Part shown: positions 2,515-47,425 of the stretch, piece after piece
How the letters are laid out: each line of letters starts with the position of its first letter
Numbering within the stretch: position 1 is the stretch's first letter
Assembly: GCA_036925085.1 (NCBI GenBank)
Contig: JAUPFP010000121.1
Coordinates: 186,001-250,000, forward strand
Source of the DNA: Brachycybe producta
Taxonomy: Eukaryota; Arthropoda; Diplopoda; Playtdesmida; Andrognathidae
Reading direction: 5' to 3'
Length of the DNA: 64,000 nucleotides
Notes under the pieces: generated by a model
Seen by the model: the letters and a program-made list of their open reading frames with translations, nothing else
What the model was told of the DNA's origin: nothing
Database searches by the model: none
Made by a program: the position numbers and the translations under genes

Positions 2515-3142
2515 TAAAATATTTGCGTCATTTTATGTAGTATTTTTGTTTCTGAGCAAATAATAAAAGTAATATGAATGATCTTCACTGTGTTTTTAGG
2601 CATGCACAATGAATTACATCCAATTTGCCTATTTAATTACTATTACTTTATTTCTTGTAAATTTACTATATGGAAATTTCTCTTTGTCACATTTCTACAG
2701 TATGAGTGTATATTTGCTAAAAATTAAAACCATTTAAAATAATATATACAATGTTGCAAATATTTTCATAAATGATAAATTCCAAAAAGGAAAAAATGCG
2801 GAAATTCCAAATTGTTAATTAAGACATTCTTTTATATGGAACTTATAGGGTAGTATTCACAATGATTGCTAAGTCAAAGTCAATTTTTGATAGGAAGTTT
2901 CATGTAAAAGTTGATGAGTTTAGCTCTACCTTTGATTTTGTAATCATTAAGAGTACGACCCTTATAGTATCTATTGTAATTAATGAAAGAATACCTATTT
3001 AAATTATATATTAAGGGTTTACATTTTTTTCAGGGATGAGTGGTATTTAATTTTCAAAAAAGTTACAAAATAGTTTGTTTTTGTATTAAGTTATATCTTT
3101 CTGCAAATAACTGAATGACTGTAAAGACTGCAAGCAAACAAA

Positions 3143-3831
3143 TGACGTCAAATGATTGCCTAGTCACAAATTCAAGATTAAAACTTAGCACTTGAACTCT
3201 CGGAGCAGGGTTCCAACATGGAAAACCCCTGTTTGAGAGTATTCAATAAAATAAAGGTTTTTTTTTTTAGTAGGAACCCTGTTTAGAGGGTTCATGTGCC
3301 TAGGTTTCGTACTGAATATGGGCCTTAACCTTACATACTAATTTAGTTAATGACGTCATTCTTGTCACGAGCACGGTTATTTGAACGTACATGGCCCACG
3401 TCATACCCCAGTATTTTTTATTGTACAATCATTTTGATCATTTTTTATAATTTTATTAAATTTAACTTTTCATTGTGTTACACTATTATTGAATTTATTC
3501 TTTTAATTTTATACAAATGAAAATTTTTTTATTGTCTTCTAATAATTATTAATTTTATTATGAATATGTACGCATACATTTAATGTTAATGATCAGCAGA
3601 TTCTGATAATAATCGATTTATGTAGCAGTGTGACGTCACGTTAATACAAATCTATGGACATTTAACGTCATACCATCGAACAAATAGATGAATAATGAAA
3701 TACGCAATTTAATCATGTTTGTAATTTTTATCTGAAAATAGTTTTTTAATTCATTTTATTTACAAAAAAAAAATTATTTAAGGTAACGGGTGACATCACA
3801 TTATTGTTTCCTATGATAGTCCGTGACGTCA
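3143..3831. promoter_or_regulatory. Cluster of four perfect TGACGTCA (CRE-type) sites
   Basis: Perfect palindromic TGACGTCA occurs at 3143-3150, 3351-3358, 3631-3638 and 3824-3831, with near matches (acgtca, tgacatca, tgacgtaa) between them. CREB/ATF bZIP factors bind this octamer. Some MITEs elsewhere in the window also carry TGACGTCA, so this may be a transposon property rather than a host enhancer. Confidence 0.4.
3165..3330. mobile_element. Family H fold-back MITE
   Basis: The left arm contains 'aaaacttagcacttgaac'. The right arm runs toward 'gggcctta' with the complementary sense ('aggtttcg', 'gaatatgggcc'). Related copies lie at about 17936-18015, 30110-30180, 34403-34615 and 40372-40549. 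All share 'attcaagaagaaactt..cacttgaac' and a central 'accctgtt'. No TSD could be assigned. Confidence 0.5.
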
Positions 3832-4563
3832 TAAGATCTCATGCAGACGCTCAAGGTGACGTAATCTCTTGTCGTCTAATATGATAGTTTCGTTTATTGA
3901 CTACTAGGTGGCGATAAAGTCAAAAATTCTCGTTTTGGCGGGGAAAAAAGTCTTTGTCGGTTCAATGTTGCAATTTTCTCGTATTTTCTGCAAGTTACGC
4001 GTTTATTACGCGAAAAATTACGTTTATAACAAGTGAAACGAAGAAGGAACAAACCATATCTCGCTTTAATTTACCTCTGAAAACGATACCTTTACTTTAT
4101 ATTCGTTTGTTTTGGTTATATCTTTTTAAAATAGCACCAATGCTATATTTTTTTTTACCTCCGTTAACGATGATATTCTGAAGAAACGCATCACTATCGG
4201 TAATCAAGGTATGATGATAATTTTATAAGCCTAATTTTATCACTGTAATCCTGTTTTTATTGTGTTCGTAATATATACTACTAGTTACAGTAGTTAATTT
4301 TTCTTCTGAATGCACTCCTTGAAAGTTAAAGATGCCAGCAGGTGGCGTGACCACCATCTTTTGGCGCCTTTTTTTTTTGCAAAATATTTTTATGCTCCTC
4401 CCCTCCCCCCCCCCCCCCCTTTGCTGATTTTCAAACTATGATTATTCTTCTGTCTTTCAGGTTATTTTCACGTTGATATCTTTTAAAATAAACTTTTTTT
4501 AGACAGGCTTAAACATAAAAAGTTTATTTTGAAAGATATCAACGTGAAAATACCTTTAAATGA

Positions 4564-4635
4564 TTAAGCTACTCTTCTAGTTTCTAAAACACGTCCAAGT
4601 TTCTCTTTATTTTGCAACCTGAAATACAGAATTAA
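4564..4635. repeat. Left 72-bp direct repeat, bracketed by TTAA
   Basis: It starts TTAAGCTACTCTTCTAG and ends CTGAAATACAGAATTAA. It is identical base for base to 5538-5609. TTAA stands at both its ends (4564-4567 and 4632-4635). Confidence 0.9.
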
Positions 4636-5537
4636 GAGCCTAGATCCACGTCGTCCATCTTGTTGTTTTGAGCAGACGACAACGAGACAAATGAGTGTTC
4701 TTATATGGTGTTACTAAAACTGAAAGAAATCGCCTCACAATCGCTCAATTAAAACGCAGTAAAGCGCAAAATGCAATAAAAAGTATTGTTCTTTCAGTGC
4801 TCGCTTTATATAAATTTTGAAAAAGGTCCTTCTATTTTTAAACAAGGTTCAAAGTCGTTCGTTTTATTAAATCCATGTTAAACCCCATTGGCCCCAAAAC
4901 CGTCCCACAGACATTTGAAAAACTCTCCTTAAAAACGATTTAGAACAATAACAAAATAATTAGCACATATATTCATGTATTGGCTTCACGATGTTTCGTT
5001 TTTATAAATTTTGAAAAGGTCCTTCTATTTTTTAATAACGTTTAAAATAGTACGTTTTTTAACTCCATGTTAAGTCCCATAGGACTAAAACACCGTCCAA
5101 CAAAAGTTAAGAGAGCTCATTAAAAATGATTTAGAGCAATCAGAAAAATTAGCACGTACTTACACGTGTTTATTGCCTTCAGGATTATTCTATTTTCTAA
5201 ATTTTAAAAGGGCTTTCTATTTTTAAATAACATTTAAAATCTTACGTTTTTTTTAACTCCATGTTACGTCCCATAGGAGCAAAAAACCGTCACCCAAACA
5301 TTTGAAGAACTCCCGTTAAAACAACTCAGAACAATAACAAAATAATTATTACGTGCATTAATCTACTGGCTTCACAATGTTTTCTTTTTATAAGATTAGC
5401 ACGCGAAATTATTTTTCCATTAATTATTATGTGACTTCAAACCGGGAGAAAAAACGTTAAAAAACCGTTTTTCAATCAACAACGATCGCAGCGCCTACAT
5501 TCGGAGAAATTTTGAACTAAACGATGTATCTAGCCTC
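4636..5537. mobile_element. 902-bp TTAA-flanked element with internal ~194-bp tandem repeats
   Basis: The ends form imperfect inverted repeats immediately inside TTAA: GAGCCTAGATCCACGTCGT on the left and, as reverse complement of the right end, GAGGCTAGATACATCGTTT. TTAA targets with TTAA duplications are known for piggyBac and Kolobok-type transposons. No coding frame is present, so it would be non-autonomous. The interior holds three tandem repeats. The flanking 72-bp direct repeats are far longer than any normal TSD for such elements. Confidence 0.65.
4809..5393. repeat. Three tandem ~194-bp repeats inside the TTAA element
   Basis: Units begin at about 4809, 5004 and 5198. Each has, in order, 'aaattttgaaaaggtccttc', 'taactccatgttaa.tccca', 'ccgtc..acaaacattt', 'agaacaataacaaaataatt' and a 'ttcacgatgtt'-like end. 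Copies differ by many substitutions, so the array is old or under little homogenisation. Confidence 0.8.
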
Positions 5538-5609
5538 TTAAGCTACTCTTCTAGTTTCTAAAACACGTCCAAGTTTCTCTTTATTTTGCAACCTGAAATA
5601 CAGAATTAA
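5538..5609. repeat. Right 72-bp direct repeat, bracketed by TTAA
   Basis: It is identical to 4564-4635 over all 72 positions, with TTAA at 5538-5541 and 5606-5609. The family C sequence continues uninterrupted after it. Confidence 0.9.
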
Positions 5610-6286
5610 CTTATTCAGAGACTAAGAAAGGTATTTACACTTTTGAAACCCATCTTTTAAAATAAAATTGTTTTTGGTCAGAAAAAAAAAAGGGTTTCTG
5701 TTATTTCATAATTAATTGTACTTTTGTTTATACGAAATATATTTTTATTTGCATAAAATGAACAATATCTTCAAACAATTTTTCATATTTTCTGAATTTT
5801 CATTTGCATAAAAATTTTCACTTTACTTTCAATTAGACTGAACAAAGTTTTAATATTTTTTGTCACAAATAGAATTAAAGAAATTTAATTTAAAGGTGTA
5901 AGTAGTCTGTTGTTCATAGTTGGATCGATAGATGGCGCTGTGTATATATAACGTTGTGTTTGTTTATCCACAAGCCCTTATCAGTTCTCCGTCCAGTACT
6001 TTATAAAGAAGCAGACAGGACAGGCGAATGATAAGGAGACGTGAAAAACAGGGGTTTATTTCGTTAAAAGAAATATCTTCATCAGTCATTTGTCTTCATT
6101 TTTCTTCCTTTTGTGAAATCCTAGCAAAAGACTTCTTCATCAGTCCATTTATTTACTAGAAAAGAAAAGAAAATCATTATTATAAATCAGTTGAATGAAT
6201 CCTTCCCTACAGAGAAAAAAAAATTCTTTTTTAGGCGCGAATCTATAAGATTGAGGTCCTTAGCTAATTATTATAAACAAAAGAAA

Positions 6287-6553
6287 TTAAAAAGTTCATT
6301 TAAAATTAGAACAGTAAAGAAATACAATAAGAATATTTTCATGGCAAAAATATCTTAAAATACATTTTATGGGTGTTTGAAAAAGTGGAAAAATTAGTAT
6401 TTTTTGACGACTTTGAGACGATTTTCAGAAATTAGTCGTCAAAAAATGTGAATTTTACACTTTTTCAAACAGCCATAAATAGTTTATTTTCAATAAATTA
6501 TTATTATTGTATTTGTTTATTAAACTAATTTTTTAAATGAACTTTGAATTTCT
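6287..6553. mobile_element. Fold-back element with nested hairpin
   Basis: The inner arms are 'tttgaaaaagtggaaaaatt' with 'ttttgacgac' at about 6376-6420, against 'gtcgtcaaaaaatgtgaatt' with 'acactttttcaaac' at about 6438-6470. The outer arms, 'agttcatttaaaattaga' (6293) and 'taattttttaaatgaact' (6527), also pair. The whole is a single inverted repeat of about 265 bp. Confidence 0.6.
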
Positions 6554-7859
6554 TTTAAAAGTTGCTTCTAAAAATGCATTGGGCATTTTCTCGATGGCAT
6601 GCTTAGTTTGAGGGCCGCGCGGCTTGCTGCACACGGACCACTTTGTGGTGCTTCATACGGATCACCATTGAAAATAATTGCGAGCTATTGTTATGACCTT
6701 TATCAGCCATGACGTAACACCCTCGCATCGCCTTTGCGTTACAAATAAAAAATGCCGTGGCGGTGGCTCGTGTGAACATTCCATATTAATCAATGTTGTC
6801 CTAAAAGGACCACTTGGCACTTTACGTAGCTGAATCCATCCACAAACTGGACCAGTTTGAAAGCGCTACTTAAAGTGGTCGTCGACCTCAAAAGGGAGTG
6901 AAGTAACCGTGAGTCACACAAATAACCGATGTATCGATACATCGTAGAAGCTTCTTGAAAGCTATATTGTAGACATACTAGTAATTTATCTTCGTAGTTT
7001 TCCTTTGGGATCAACTTTGAGAGAAATTTTTCCCTCCTCCCCTCCGCTTCCTCCCCCCCCCACACACACACACAGCCACACATTCATTTTTCTTTGTGTT
7101 TTTGTATGTGTGCTGATAAAACATCCCCAGGAATGAGGAATGAGAAAGTGAGTCTGGAGAGGAAATGATTCATTATTTCTGATGGCATAATGATGTTGTA
7201 GGCCTATACTTAAAAGTTGGTTGGTGGCTTCATTGTTCAAAATGAAGAGGGATGATGAAAAACGAAGAAGCACACTTGAGAATATATATATATGCATTTT
7301 ACAGCCAAGTTGGATTGAAAAAGAAGAAAGAAAAAAAAATCAGTTATTATCGCACTATGACTAGACAATGTGCAAACAAAAACCAATTAGGTAATAAATC
7401 TGCGCAATTGCTTAGCGTTTTAGACAATGTGAAGAATGTCTAAAAAGCTAAAACAACAAGTCAGTTTACATATTATCTGAAATGGCTTGTAGTTTAGAGA
7501 CACATTGGTTAAAACGCTATTATTTGTGTAGATTAACTAGCGAATTGGTGGTTCAGGTAGTATGTCGAATGACTGAATTGAATGACAGAACAGAGAGTGA
7601 GAGAGAGGCTGAGAATGAAGCTGAATTGGCGGCACACACGAGACGTAAGATCCATGTGAGAGAACCTGAGAGGACGCATCATTCATACAAGTGCAACAGA
7701 ACGGTTGAGATGGATGACAGGACTGTAATTAGGTCCAGTTACCGGGTAGTTAGTTAGCCTATTTAATAAAAGAAAAAGAAAACATTCAAAACATCAGAAA
7801 TATTAGTAAAAAAAAATTAAAATCCAAAAAAACCCTCTACGTTCAGTCCCACGTTTCAC

Positions 7860-8190
7860 CCCTTAAGATGGCTTATGAAATTGTTTTAGAAACTAGAAGG
7901 GTAGCTCAATAAAGTTATAATATTTTCAAGTTGATATATTTTATAATAAACATTTTTAAGACAAAAATTTAAAAAAAAAATATTGTCTGCTTCAAGTAGG
8001 GTCATTTTCAAAACTCACATAAAAAGCTCAGTTTGAAAGATTTCAACATGAAAATACAATTAAGTGATTGAATTAACCTTCTAGTTTATAAAACAAATTC
8101 AAGTTTGTCTTTATTTTTGCACCTAAAAGACAGAATATTCAAGACTTTGTTGAGAAGGGCATTTACACTTTAAAAACCAAATTAAATGCA
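7860..8190. mobile_element. Family C fold-back element
   Basis: The left arm has 'ttttagaaactagaaggg' and 'tagctcaataaag'. The right arm has 'aagtgattgaattaacct' and 'tctagtttataaaac', followed by the 'gacagaatattcaagact' outer part. The centre carries 'ttgtctgcttcaagtaggg'. It is diverged from the 46.9 and 50.3 kb copies. Confidence 0.65.
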
Positions 8191-39930: not shown

Positions 39931-40371
39931 ACAAATCTCAAATAATAAATCTCAAAAATATATATACAAATATCAAATGCTATTTGGCCTTTAAGCAGTG
40001 TATAAATTTTAATAACTGCATTTATGTATAGTGGACTTATAAATATTATGATGGTGGCCTACTACATATTAGAGACTAGAAGTATCTTTAATGCAAGAGG
40101 TTTAAAATATATCGACCCGATGTTGCGAAATCTTTTGTACTTTTTTTGAGATGAAGGGGATGAACCTGCAATTTAAAGTTAAAATCCTTTTCATTGCGAT
40201 TTTTTTTTATTCTGTCATGATGATTTTAAACAATTCAGTTTTAATTACAATGTTTGAAGCATTCATTTATATACATTGAGGAATTTGATGTATGTAATTT
40301 TTTGGTCCGAACTATACCCGGAAAATGAATTTAACCGGTATTGGGATTAAACACAATATTTTTACAACTTA

Positions 40372-40549
40372 GGCAAAAATTCAAGAAGGAAACTTAGCAC
40401 TTGGACCTTCAAAACTGGGTTTCAATACAGAAATAAACTGTTTCATTGAGGAGACAGGGTTTTTTTTCTTTCTAAATATAACTTTGCTCAGAGGTTTTGA
40501 GTTGAAATTCAAGTGTCAAGTTTACTTTTTGAATTTGGACCTTAGTCAA
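40372..40549. mobile_element. Family H fold-back MITE
   Basis: The left arm is 'aaattcaagaaggaaacttag' cut to 'cacttgga'. The right arm is 'aattcaagtgtcaagttta' and 'tttgaatttggacctta'. The centre is 'gagacagggttttttt'. Confidence 0.55.
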
Positions 40550-41086
40550 TTTTCTTGAACTATTTAGCGTTTTATAAATCTCGCCTAGGGACCAATAAAA
40601 CATATATGAATCACGAGTTTATTAACACCGTAGGGTTTTTGTTATTGTCGATTTTGAACATTTTTTGAGGCCACCCTTTGTATAAATATAAATTTAAGAG
40701 GTTTTCTCAGTGAGTGTGTGTGTGTGTGATAGTAGTAGTTGCAAGTGTTGTTGCTTTTGCAGTTTGTTTTCAAGTATGTTTTAGTAACAAACTAATCGAT
40801 ATTGGGTGAGGTGCATATCACGAAATGTTCTTCTTTTTTTTTCTTCTCTCTGTAGTAAAAAAAGAACTTGTTTGAAATATAATCAAGGCATTTTTCAGAC
40901 TAGATTGGAGAAAAATCGGAAGTAATGCATTTGCCTTGGGCTTCATTTTGTTGATTAATGTTACATGTACAATATATGCTTGCATATATATATATATATG
41001 TCTCTTTTTTTGCGCTTCGTTTGTTATCACATTCCTTCTTTTATACAGTATATACATTGTATAATATATGAAAAGATGGAAAGAGA

Positions 41087-41500
41087 GTGGAGTTGATGGA
41101 ACTCCTCAATAGTGTTATCATTGATTGCCTACTTACAAGGGGAAAAGAAAGAACGCGTGAAAAAGCGAGAGAGAGAGTAGGCAGGATGGAAGGAGAGAGA
41201 GAGAGAGAGAGAGAGAGGAGGGAGAAAGTAAAGGGAACACGAAAGGGAGAGAAAACAGAAAGTGAGAGTGAGGGAAAGGAAGAGGGAGAGAGAAAGAGAG
41301 GCCGAGAGAGAGATAGTGAGAAAGAGAAAGACAGGAAGAGTGAGGGAAAGCGAAAGGGAGAGAGTGAGGGAAAGTGAGAGGGAGAGTAAGGAAGAGAGAG
41401 AGAGAGTGAATGAAAGTGAGAGGTAGAGTAAGAGAGACAGAGAGAGTGAGAAGAAAAGAAGAGGGAGATAGCAAGAAAGAGAGATAGAAAGAAAGTAAGA
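41087..41500 (+). repeat. GA-rich simple-sequence tract
   Basis: About 400 bp of imperfect (GA)n/(GGAGA)n. The frames on both strands (Glu/Arg/Lys/Ser on one, Ser/Leu/Pro on the other) follow purely from this composition. Confidence 0.9.
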
Positions 41501-41814
41501 ATTATACTGAGCGTGTGGAATTACTACTTATTTTATAATATTTGCTTCGTTCTTTTGCATTTGAGGTCTTTTTTCTTTAAATAATGATTGTCTTTTGATG
41601 TTGATGTGTTCAACATCTTTTTTTCTTTTTTTCTTAAATCGGGTGGCGCTGATGAAACGCGTCCTATTTAAAGATGATTATCTCAGAAACTATAAAAGCT
41701 ACACATTTTGAAATTTATTTCCATTAATTTTTTTAACGACATATCAAACTGAATATTTTTTAACAAAATATTGAAACATTGAATTTTGAAAAATGTCGTT
41801 TAAAAATATCTGTT

Positions 41815-42108
41815 CTAATACCTTGTACACGCATGAGTTCAAATTAAATGTGTTTAGGTGAATTATACGGAATCCAGTTAAAGACATGAACCAAATAAAA
41901 ATTGACTTTATTATTTTAAATTGAAATTTACTAAATCAATATTTTTTCAATAGTTTATAAATTATATTTAAGTATTAACTGAATATTTTCAGATTATTAA
42001 CTGAATAAATTGAATTCGACATATTGTTTGTTTGCCCTTCACGGGGCTCTGTAGAACACGTTTATTATTTAAATTTATTTAAATTATCAGGTGTATACTA
42101 GGTATAAG
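41815..42108 (+). mobile_element. Family F MITE (~295 bp)
   Basis: It starts 'aataccttgtacacgcatga' and ends 'aggtgtatactaggtataag'. The interior is 'aattcaaattaaatgtgttt', 'tacggaatccagttaa', 'gacatattgtttgtttgc' and 'gggctctgtagaacacg'. A strongly diverged inverse copy follows at about 42112-42370. Confidence 0.7.
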
Positions 42109-42487
42109 GCCTAATAATTTATCTGCACCTAAAAAGTTAAATGCATTTAAAATAATTAAACATGAAATATGTTAAATTCAATTTATTCAGTTTATAATTT
42201 ATATTGAGTTAAACATTATTTTTAATTTGTATTCCAAATATTAATTTAATATTTCAAGTTGTTCAAATATTGAGTAATAATTTAAATTTTATTTGGTTCA
42301 TCAACTGTTCAACGAAACAAATTTAACTTGAATACACTTAGCTTAAGTGTAGTTAAGGTATAAGCAAATTAGAGACAACTTTTGTTATTTGAATTGCTAA
42401 CCTATACTTACTACGAACATACTAGAACATACACACCGTAAAATAAGGAAATTTATGTGCCCTCTACTGAGCATTAATAGAAACAAT

Positions 42488-42488
<1 letters not shown>

Positions 42489-42519
<31 letters not shown>
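42489..42519. repeat. (AC)n microsatellite
   Basis: About 15 CA dinucleotides. Confidence 0.95.
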
Positions 42520-42724
42520 CCAAATTACCATCCATATTCTTCATGCTAATGTACTTTGTTTAATTCATTTTTCAATAAATTTCTTGTTCACTTTTGGCGG
42601 AAAGTTTCTGAACGGAATTCTGCGTGTGTTCCAGGCTTTTTTTTCATTTTATGTTGGTATTAAAAAATTACCATTAAAGTTTTTTTTAAATATTAAACAT
42701 GAAAATCTCATTAAGTAATTCAGT

Positions 42725-42862
42725 TAGGGCTTTGGCACACAGGTGACTTTTAACTGTGTGCGAAGGTTAGCATCTTTTTTTATAGAAATCACATTGCCGC
42801 AACCTTCGACTTCATTTTGTTACCTAAAGTCTTTCAATAATTGTCTTTATGTCAAGGCCCCT
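42725..42862. mobile_element. Family G MITE, degraded
   Basis: 'gggctttggcacacaggtga' at left and 'tctttatgtcaaggcccc' at right are the family ends. The inner 'cgcaaccttcgacttcattt' matches the 18.1 and 44.0 kb copies. Confidence 0.5.
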
Positions 42863-43171
42863 TATACCTTGTACACACATACACAGTTAAATGCATTTAA
42901 ATATTAAACACGTTCTACAGAGCCCTGTGAAAGGCAAATGGACAATATGTCGAATTCAATTTATTCATGTTATAATCTGAAAATATTGAGTTAATACTTA
43001 AATATAATCAGATAAACTATTGACAAAATATTGATTTAGTATTTCAATTTAAAATATTAATAATAAAAGCCAATTTTTATTTGGTGTTCATGTCCTTAAT
43101 TGGATTCCGTATAATTCACCAAAACACATTTAATTTGAATTCATTTAACTCATGTGTGTACAAGGTATAAG
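42861..43171 (-). mobile_element. Family F MITE, full length, inverse orientation
   Basis: The ends CTTATACCTTGTACACACAT and ATGTGTGTACAAGGTATAAG are exact inverted complements over 20 bp. Interior landmarks appear in reverse order to 41815-42108. Best-preserved copy of the family here. Confidence 0.85.
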
Positions 43172-46859: not shown

Positions 46860-47425
46860 TTTAGAAGCACTTTTAAGGTGGTTTTTAAGGCTTCTCGAAC
46901 TCTTGATATTATTCTGTCTTTCATATGCAAAATGAAGAGAAACTTGAACGTGCTTTATAGACTAGAAGGGTAGCTCAGTCCCTTAAGTGTATTTTCGTGT
47001 TGATATCTTTTAAAATACAGTAGAATATCGATTATCGGAACTAATGTCGGGCATGCATAGTTCCGATAATCAAAAGTTCACATAATCGAACTCCCATTAA
47101 GAAAAAGTGGGGAAAACTAAGAAAAAACCCATTGCAAAAAAAATTTGTTACTTTTATGAAAGTAGTATTTTCTTAAGAATAAGTAAAAAAAAAATTGGTT
47201 CCGATAATCGATACTTCCGATTGAAAATGAAACAACTTTGAGAAGAAGACGATGCTTAGCAGGCAATACTTTTCATTTTCCTCAATGAAAAGGTATATTT
47301 TGAAAGATATCAACATGAAAATACCATTAAGTGATTAAGCTACCCTTCTAGTTTCTCTTAATGTTGCTTAATGAAAGACAGAAAAGTCTACTAGTTCGAA
47401 AATCAGCTGTTCATAAAACATTTTA
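46860..47425. mobile_element. Family C element carrying a nested pogo-like MITE
   Basis: The left part runs from 'cttttaaggtggtttttaag' through 'atgcaaaatgaagagaaact' and 'tagaagggtagctcagtc' to 'ttgatatcttttaaaata'. It is interrupted at about 47018-47222 and resumes with 'gagaagaagacgatgcttag' and the right arm 'gatatcaacatgaaaatacc' to about 47425. Confidence 0.75.
47018..47222. mobile_element. pogo-like MITE nested in family C
   Basis: After TA the left end reads CAGTAGAATATCGATTATCG. The right part is 'ggttccgataatcgatactt'. The 13050-13264 copy has the same ends and the same 'aaaaagtgggg' and 'attgcaa' interior. The right terminus is degraded, so its last bases are uncertain. Confidence 0.65.

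Follow-up and report, generated by a model that had tools for sequence, protein, structure and literature searches.

Kolobok transposons are defined by a TTAA target and by ends that carry two purines (RR), according to the part of the literature on which we draw here (PMC6004289). The Xenopus T2-MITE, a non-autonomous element of the Kolobok type, duplicates TTAA and has such a purine-purine terminus, as set out in the same source. Coral CMITEs occur in tandem arrays and have been linked with piggyBac-like transposons, in the sections of the CMITE paper used here (PMC2872659). From the portion of a study of piggyBac that we cite, excision by this transposon is footprint-free, with the sites rejoined precisely, and its transposase can use ends that lie on two separate molecules, which it does eight-fold more often than that of Sleeping Beauty (PMC3952818). 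Hybrid element insertion by the P element yields flanking rearrangements, and for maize sister-chromatid transposition the sections consulted of the same paper name deletions together with duplications of the inverted, not the direct, kind (PMC3744419). The part of the open-licence literature that was covered yielded no natural case of a TTAA transposon duplicating its flank in the manner described below.

A TTAA element between 72-bp direct repeats

The window is a stretch of 64,000 nucleotides of the Brachycybe producta genome, and positions are numbered from its first letter. A repeat search showed that 4564-4635 and 5538-5609 are direct repeats of 72 nt with 100% identity, spaced 974 apart. 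Both copies carry TTAA at each end and both abut a 902-bp insert. The base before the copies is A in the left one and C in the right one, and the base after them is G and C, respectively, so that the repeat stops at TTAA. Given its length and placement, a match by chance is not credible. The features of the locus are as follows.

4423..4563, forward strand: left portion of the family C element that serves as host; start approximate, inverted arms at 4455-4498 and 4517-4560
4564..4635, forward strand: left 72-bp direct repeat, belonging to the family C host, with TTAA at 4564-4567 and 4632-4635
4636..5537, forward strand: non-autonomous TTAA element (MITE) of 902 bp with three internal repeats of ~193 bp
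4636..4647, forward strand: 5' terminal inverted repeat of the MITE, matching the 3' end at 10 of 12 positions
4814..5393, forward strand: three internal tandem units of the MITE, each ~193 bp (families D1-D3), at a spacing of 192-194
5526..5537, reverse strand: 3' terminal inverted repeat of the MITE
5538..5609, forward strand: right 72-bp direct repeat, identical to 4564-4635
5610..5660, forward strand: possible right terminus of this family C host, at modest similarity

The initial annotation had described a TTAA element with inverted ends, flanked by identical TTAA-bounded repeats that are themselves a piece of a family C element, and this description holds to the base, with the same layout present on a second contig (C23). 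The other TTAA-bounded repeat pairs that were found, in the window and at loci L009-L047, surround inserts with terminal matches at 1 to 6 of 12 positions. The arrangement is exact as well as real and rare, and it is found on two contigs.

The element at 4636..5537 is a high-copy TTAA-duplicating MITE. Its ends start GAGCCTAGAT, it contains no ORF of at least 130 aa, and most of its copies have TTAA on both sides. In the genome that holds the window (295 Mb, 442 contigs), a search with the 21-base 5' end including TTAA, allowing up to two mismatches, returned 1,306 places, and the reversed control returned 0. Among 35 copies from one contig (L069-L108), lengths fell into classes of ~523, 715 and 907 bp (6, 13 and 16 copies), which correspond to one to three whole internal units of ~193 bp.

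The ends of piggyBac begin CCC. Both ends of the present MITE begin GAG, and in this it departs from the piggyBac pattern. With a TTAA target and a GA terminus, the element fits the Kolobok rule in its terminal bases. It resembles the Xenopus T2-MITE in the TTAA duplication, in the purine-purine terminus and in having members with an amplified internal segment, a likeness of description and not of sequence (PMC6004289, in part).

At three loci (L023, L091 and L094) a MITE end directly adjoins the end of another copy, with one TTAA common to both. The adjoining copies at L091 and L094 look head-to-tail, recalling the tandem arrays of coral CMITEs as these are described in the sections cited above (PMC2872659).

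Flanks of other copies, host element and second contig

Flanks were read for 76 two-ended MITE copies in two sets, neither of them a random sample. Set 1 comprised the 41 copies scoring best against the MITE in a DNA search. Set 2 was drawn from contig C1, where the listed exact 5' ends were followed in order to give 40 loci; five of these (L088, L089, L095, L100 and L103) had no copy with both ends and were left out, which gave 35 two-ended copies. Two of the 76 are the window locus and its C23 counterpart, and the other 74 served for comparison. Plain TTAA was present on both sides of 70 of these (37/39 in set 1, 33/35 in set 2), and the right end was altered in the remaining four (L037, L045, L078 and L084). 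We scored as a wide flanking repeat any ungapped match of at least 12 bp at 75% identity that touched both ends of the element, or any gapped BLAST match that touched both ends, in flanks of at least 976 bp (set 1) or at least 254 bp (set 2). None was detected among the 74 copies, out of ~1,306 in the genome. The left and right flanks of L010 do have family C-like pieces in common, but these touch one end only.

Since 70 of 74 copies have plain TTAA and none has a wide repeat, an ordinary insertion of this MITE gives 4 bp, and something extra happened at the window locus. The locus is therefore exceptional, as had been foreseen for the case of plain TTAA elsewhere. The proposal that the 72 bp travelled with the element as cargo finds no counterpart in any of the 74 other copies, and the same count speaks against a general mode of mobilisation; the locus is not evidence of a general or new one. 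That the 72 bp belongs to the MITE itself was considered and ruled out, the segment being missing from 74/74 other two-ended copies.

Family C, the host of the insertion, is abundant, diverged, partly palindromic and TTAA-rich, with at least 101 matches from the best 40 of 4,635 candidates; by eye, it ends in TTAA in several of 20 places read. Family C sequence occurs in the window at 4423-5660, 7882-8136 and 46911-47356 and at many other loci, in places with several copies close together. Compared with 10 family C loci, the left flank of the locus (4401-4448) scored above every one of 100 shuffles in 7 cases. The right flank alone (5606-5670) is only weakly family C-like and did so in 3 of 10. 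When the empty site was joined with a single 72-bp copy, it aligned across the junction in L049, L056 and L064, the three alignments shown. Judged from these similarities, it is only suggestive that 5610..5660 belongs to the same host element as the left flank.

Five further MITE copies (L010, L013, L072, L084 and L098) lie inside family C without a duplication, with site-spanning matches of 78-122 bp interrupted by small gaps only, and a sixth copy in family C (L105) has a spanning match of 33 bp. Because the five copies lack a duplication, a family C target alone is not the cause. By eye, the host copy in the window seems to be without part of the left arm (4448-4470), and L064 seems similar; this loss may be a subfamily trait unlinked to the duplication.

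The second contig matches window 2551-7597 at C23:56159-61205 with 97.9% identity, 46 of 5,017 ungapped columns being different in the megablast alignment. Window 40917-43000 corresponds to C23:92501-94585 at 99% and in the same order; the first 917 bases of window 40000-43000 gave no C23 match in that region. C23 probably represents the other haplotype; failing that, it would be a large duplicate. The duplication has the same layout there, with a single base changed, in the left 72-bp copy (window 4626). Among the locus matches scored there are two copies of the locus, in the window and on C23, both with the duplication; no single-site allele, single-copy donor allele or reciprocal deletion was seen among them. 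The presence of the duplication on two contigs makes an assembly slip unlikely and implies that the event took place before the two copies of the locus separated.

The zero divergence of the 72-bp copies had been taken to date the event as younger than the element. The MITE at this locus carries 8 substitutions in ~905 bp that are common to both contigs and occur in no other of 41 aligned copies. If the duplication were as old as this private branch, 1.3 differences would be expected between the 72-bp copies, with a probability of 0.28 (a 28% chance) of none, so that the argument is uninformative. As more than 1,260 MITE copies were left out of the alignment, some of the 8 substitutions may not be private, in which case zero differences would be still less telling. 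Nor does a contrast with the diverged internal repeats help: those units are built into the family, whose other copies show them as length classes, and for this reason their divergence says nothing about the age of the insertion.

Histories of the duplication

The locus is most likely best read as one aberrant transposition or as a two-step coincidence. We tentatively favour the former, in the shape of hybrid-element transposition, a route absent from the initial annotation, and put its chances at somewhat below even. The starting point would be a family C element with two sites, TTAA1 and TTAA2, 68 bp apart start to start, into one of which the 902-bp MITE would first have inserted normally. 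In a later germ cell, after replication, transposase would have brought into one synapse the left MITE end of one chromatid and the right end of its sister or of the homologue, and this hybrid element would then have joined the other nearby TTAA. As a worked case, let the MITE lie at TTAA2 and the target be TTAA1. Cutting would free the left end from chromatid A and the right end from chromatid B, and the two would be joined to TTAA1, which lies on A's left fragment. The product would be left flank-TTAA1-68-TTAA2-MITE-TTAA1-68-TTAA2-right flank, and the reciprocal product would be L-TTAA-MITE-TTAA-R, with the 68-bp piece lost. Footprint-free rejoining of the excision ends, as known for piggyBac, would make the unit run exactly from TTAA to TTAA. 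We infer each reaction step, and the choice of donor TTAA, from the product.

The product itself is what is found: a target segment is directly repeated on either side of a single element, with one new and one old target site as its bounds, and the duplication spans exactly one TTAA to the next. The rival histories predict identical letters. Hybrid insertion of the P element and sister-chromatid transposition of Ac/Ds likewise generate flanking duplications when ends from two chromatids join a nearby site, as we propose for hybrid-element transposition here, while the present duplication is direct and the one named in the cited part of the maize work is inverted (PMC3744419). Unlike in either of these systems, TTAA forms both bounds and no footprint is left, and the event is known from sequence alone. 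The direct-duplication product of hybrid ends was derived in this analysis, and seamless excision by the transposase of the MITE is assumed. The original P-element paper reportedly describes flanking duplications and deletions, as its title has it.

If hybrid-element transposition is correct, the locus would be a natural case of footprint-free alternative transposition by a TTAA element. Seamless transposons would then have a scarless way of duplicating or deleting the DNA beside them, a point that would bear on the view that genomes are left unaltered by piggyBac-like tools. With one locus, this is chiefly a lead, and its being a single event without a second example counts against hybrid-element transposition.

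Close behind, and quite possible in its own right, is a history in which the tandem came first. Slippage or end-joining at the common ATTAA, a 5-base match at both unit ends, would have produced TTAA-68-TTAA-68-TTAA in family C, and the MITE would then have hit the middle TTAA. Ordinary steps suffice for this. In 265,210 bases with 3,593 TTAA sites, TTAA-bounded tandems of 24-600 bp and >85% identity were found in four places: the AT-rich L013 (30 bp) and L014 (44 bp), a 21-bp array at L026, and at L047 a plain two-copy tandem of 45 bp with 98% identity. Taking L014 and L047, ~2 in 3,593 sites amounts to ~0.7 hits per 1,306 insertions. Such an event is rare per copy, yet one case per genome would not surprise, and the 44-45 bp tandems, by making a chance hit expected about once per genome for ~1,306 insertions, also count against the hybrid-element account. 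For any given insertion, however, breakpoints exactly at TTAA and an insertion exactly at the junction are both required. At 50-400 bp and >90% identity, the L026 array was the only tandem among 3,435 TTAA sites, and an ungapped scan found none bounded by TTAA in the 19 family C places covered. The MITE-free junction motif had 0 exact matches in the genome, a search in which an unassembled allele would be missed; allowing one mismatch gave 23 matches against 16 for the reversed control, which is background level. One locus cannot separate the hybrid-element and tandem-first histories.

We consider it unlikely that the locus arose from two insertions, at TTAA1 and TTAA2, in alleles that then recombined within the MITE, or from faulty gap repair, in which the MITE would be copied from the sister after excision and a template switch at TTAA would cause the 68-bp piece to be copied twice. 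Each of these yields the same product; the 900 bp of common MITE sequence would permit recombination, and MITE ends do abut other copies (L023, L091 and L094). A priori, nonetheless, neither a pair of independent insertions 68 bp from each other nor a template switch on only four or five bases is likely, and no single-site allele of the locus is present among the matches scored.

It had also been suggested that paired cuts were made at neighbouring TTAA sites. In one synapse, the MITE ends would attack TTAA1 and TTAA2 on opposite strands, and filling of the 72-nt gap would duplicate the piece. A duplication running exactly from TTAA to TTAA is predicted in one step, and the observed letters would result. 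In the piggyBac strand-transfer complex, in the part of its description cited here, both ends join one melted, bent TTAA, a geometry for which 68 bp between the sites is unfit if the transposase of the MITE is alike (PMC7351741). None of the 74 other two-ended copies shows such an event, and no recurrent duplication of varied length was found among them. We therefore hold this history to be very improbable, and give as little credence to the broader idea that a TTAA transposase joins its ends to two TTAA sites 68 bp apart in one reaction, as a rare second insertion mode with duplications of variable length. That a 72-bp copy was added by mis-assembly is scarcely tenable, with the layout on two contigs, of which C23 alone has a substitution in one of the copies.

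piggyBac transposase genes in the genome

The genome contains 93 matches to the piggyBac transposase domain PF13843, eight of them with open frames of 613-624 aa. By eye, no MITE-like end was seen beside one PF13843 gene in two short pieces. Among the 100 places listed of the 1,306, also compared by eye, exact MITE ends on C1 come no nearer than ~180 kb to the six strongest PF13843 genes of that contig. Four PF13843 matches (G000:C1:6141124, C1:12714159, C1:13384735 and C26:525118) score identically, each with an open frame of 620 aa, and these genes possibly represent a recently active piggyBac family.
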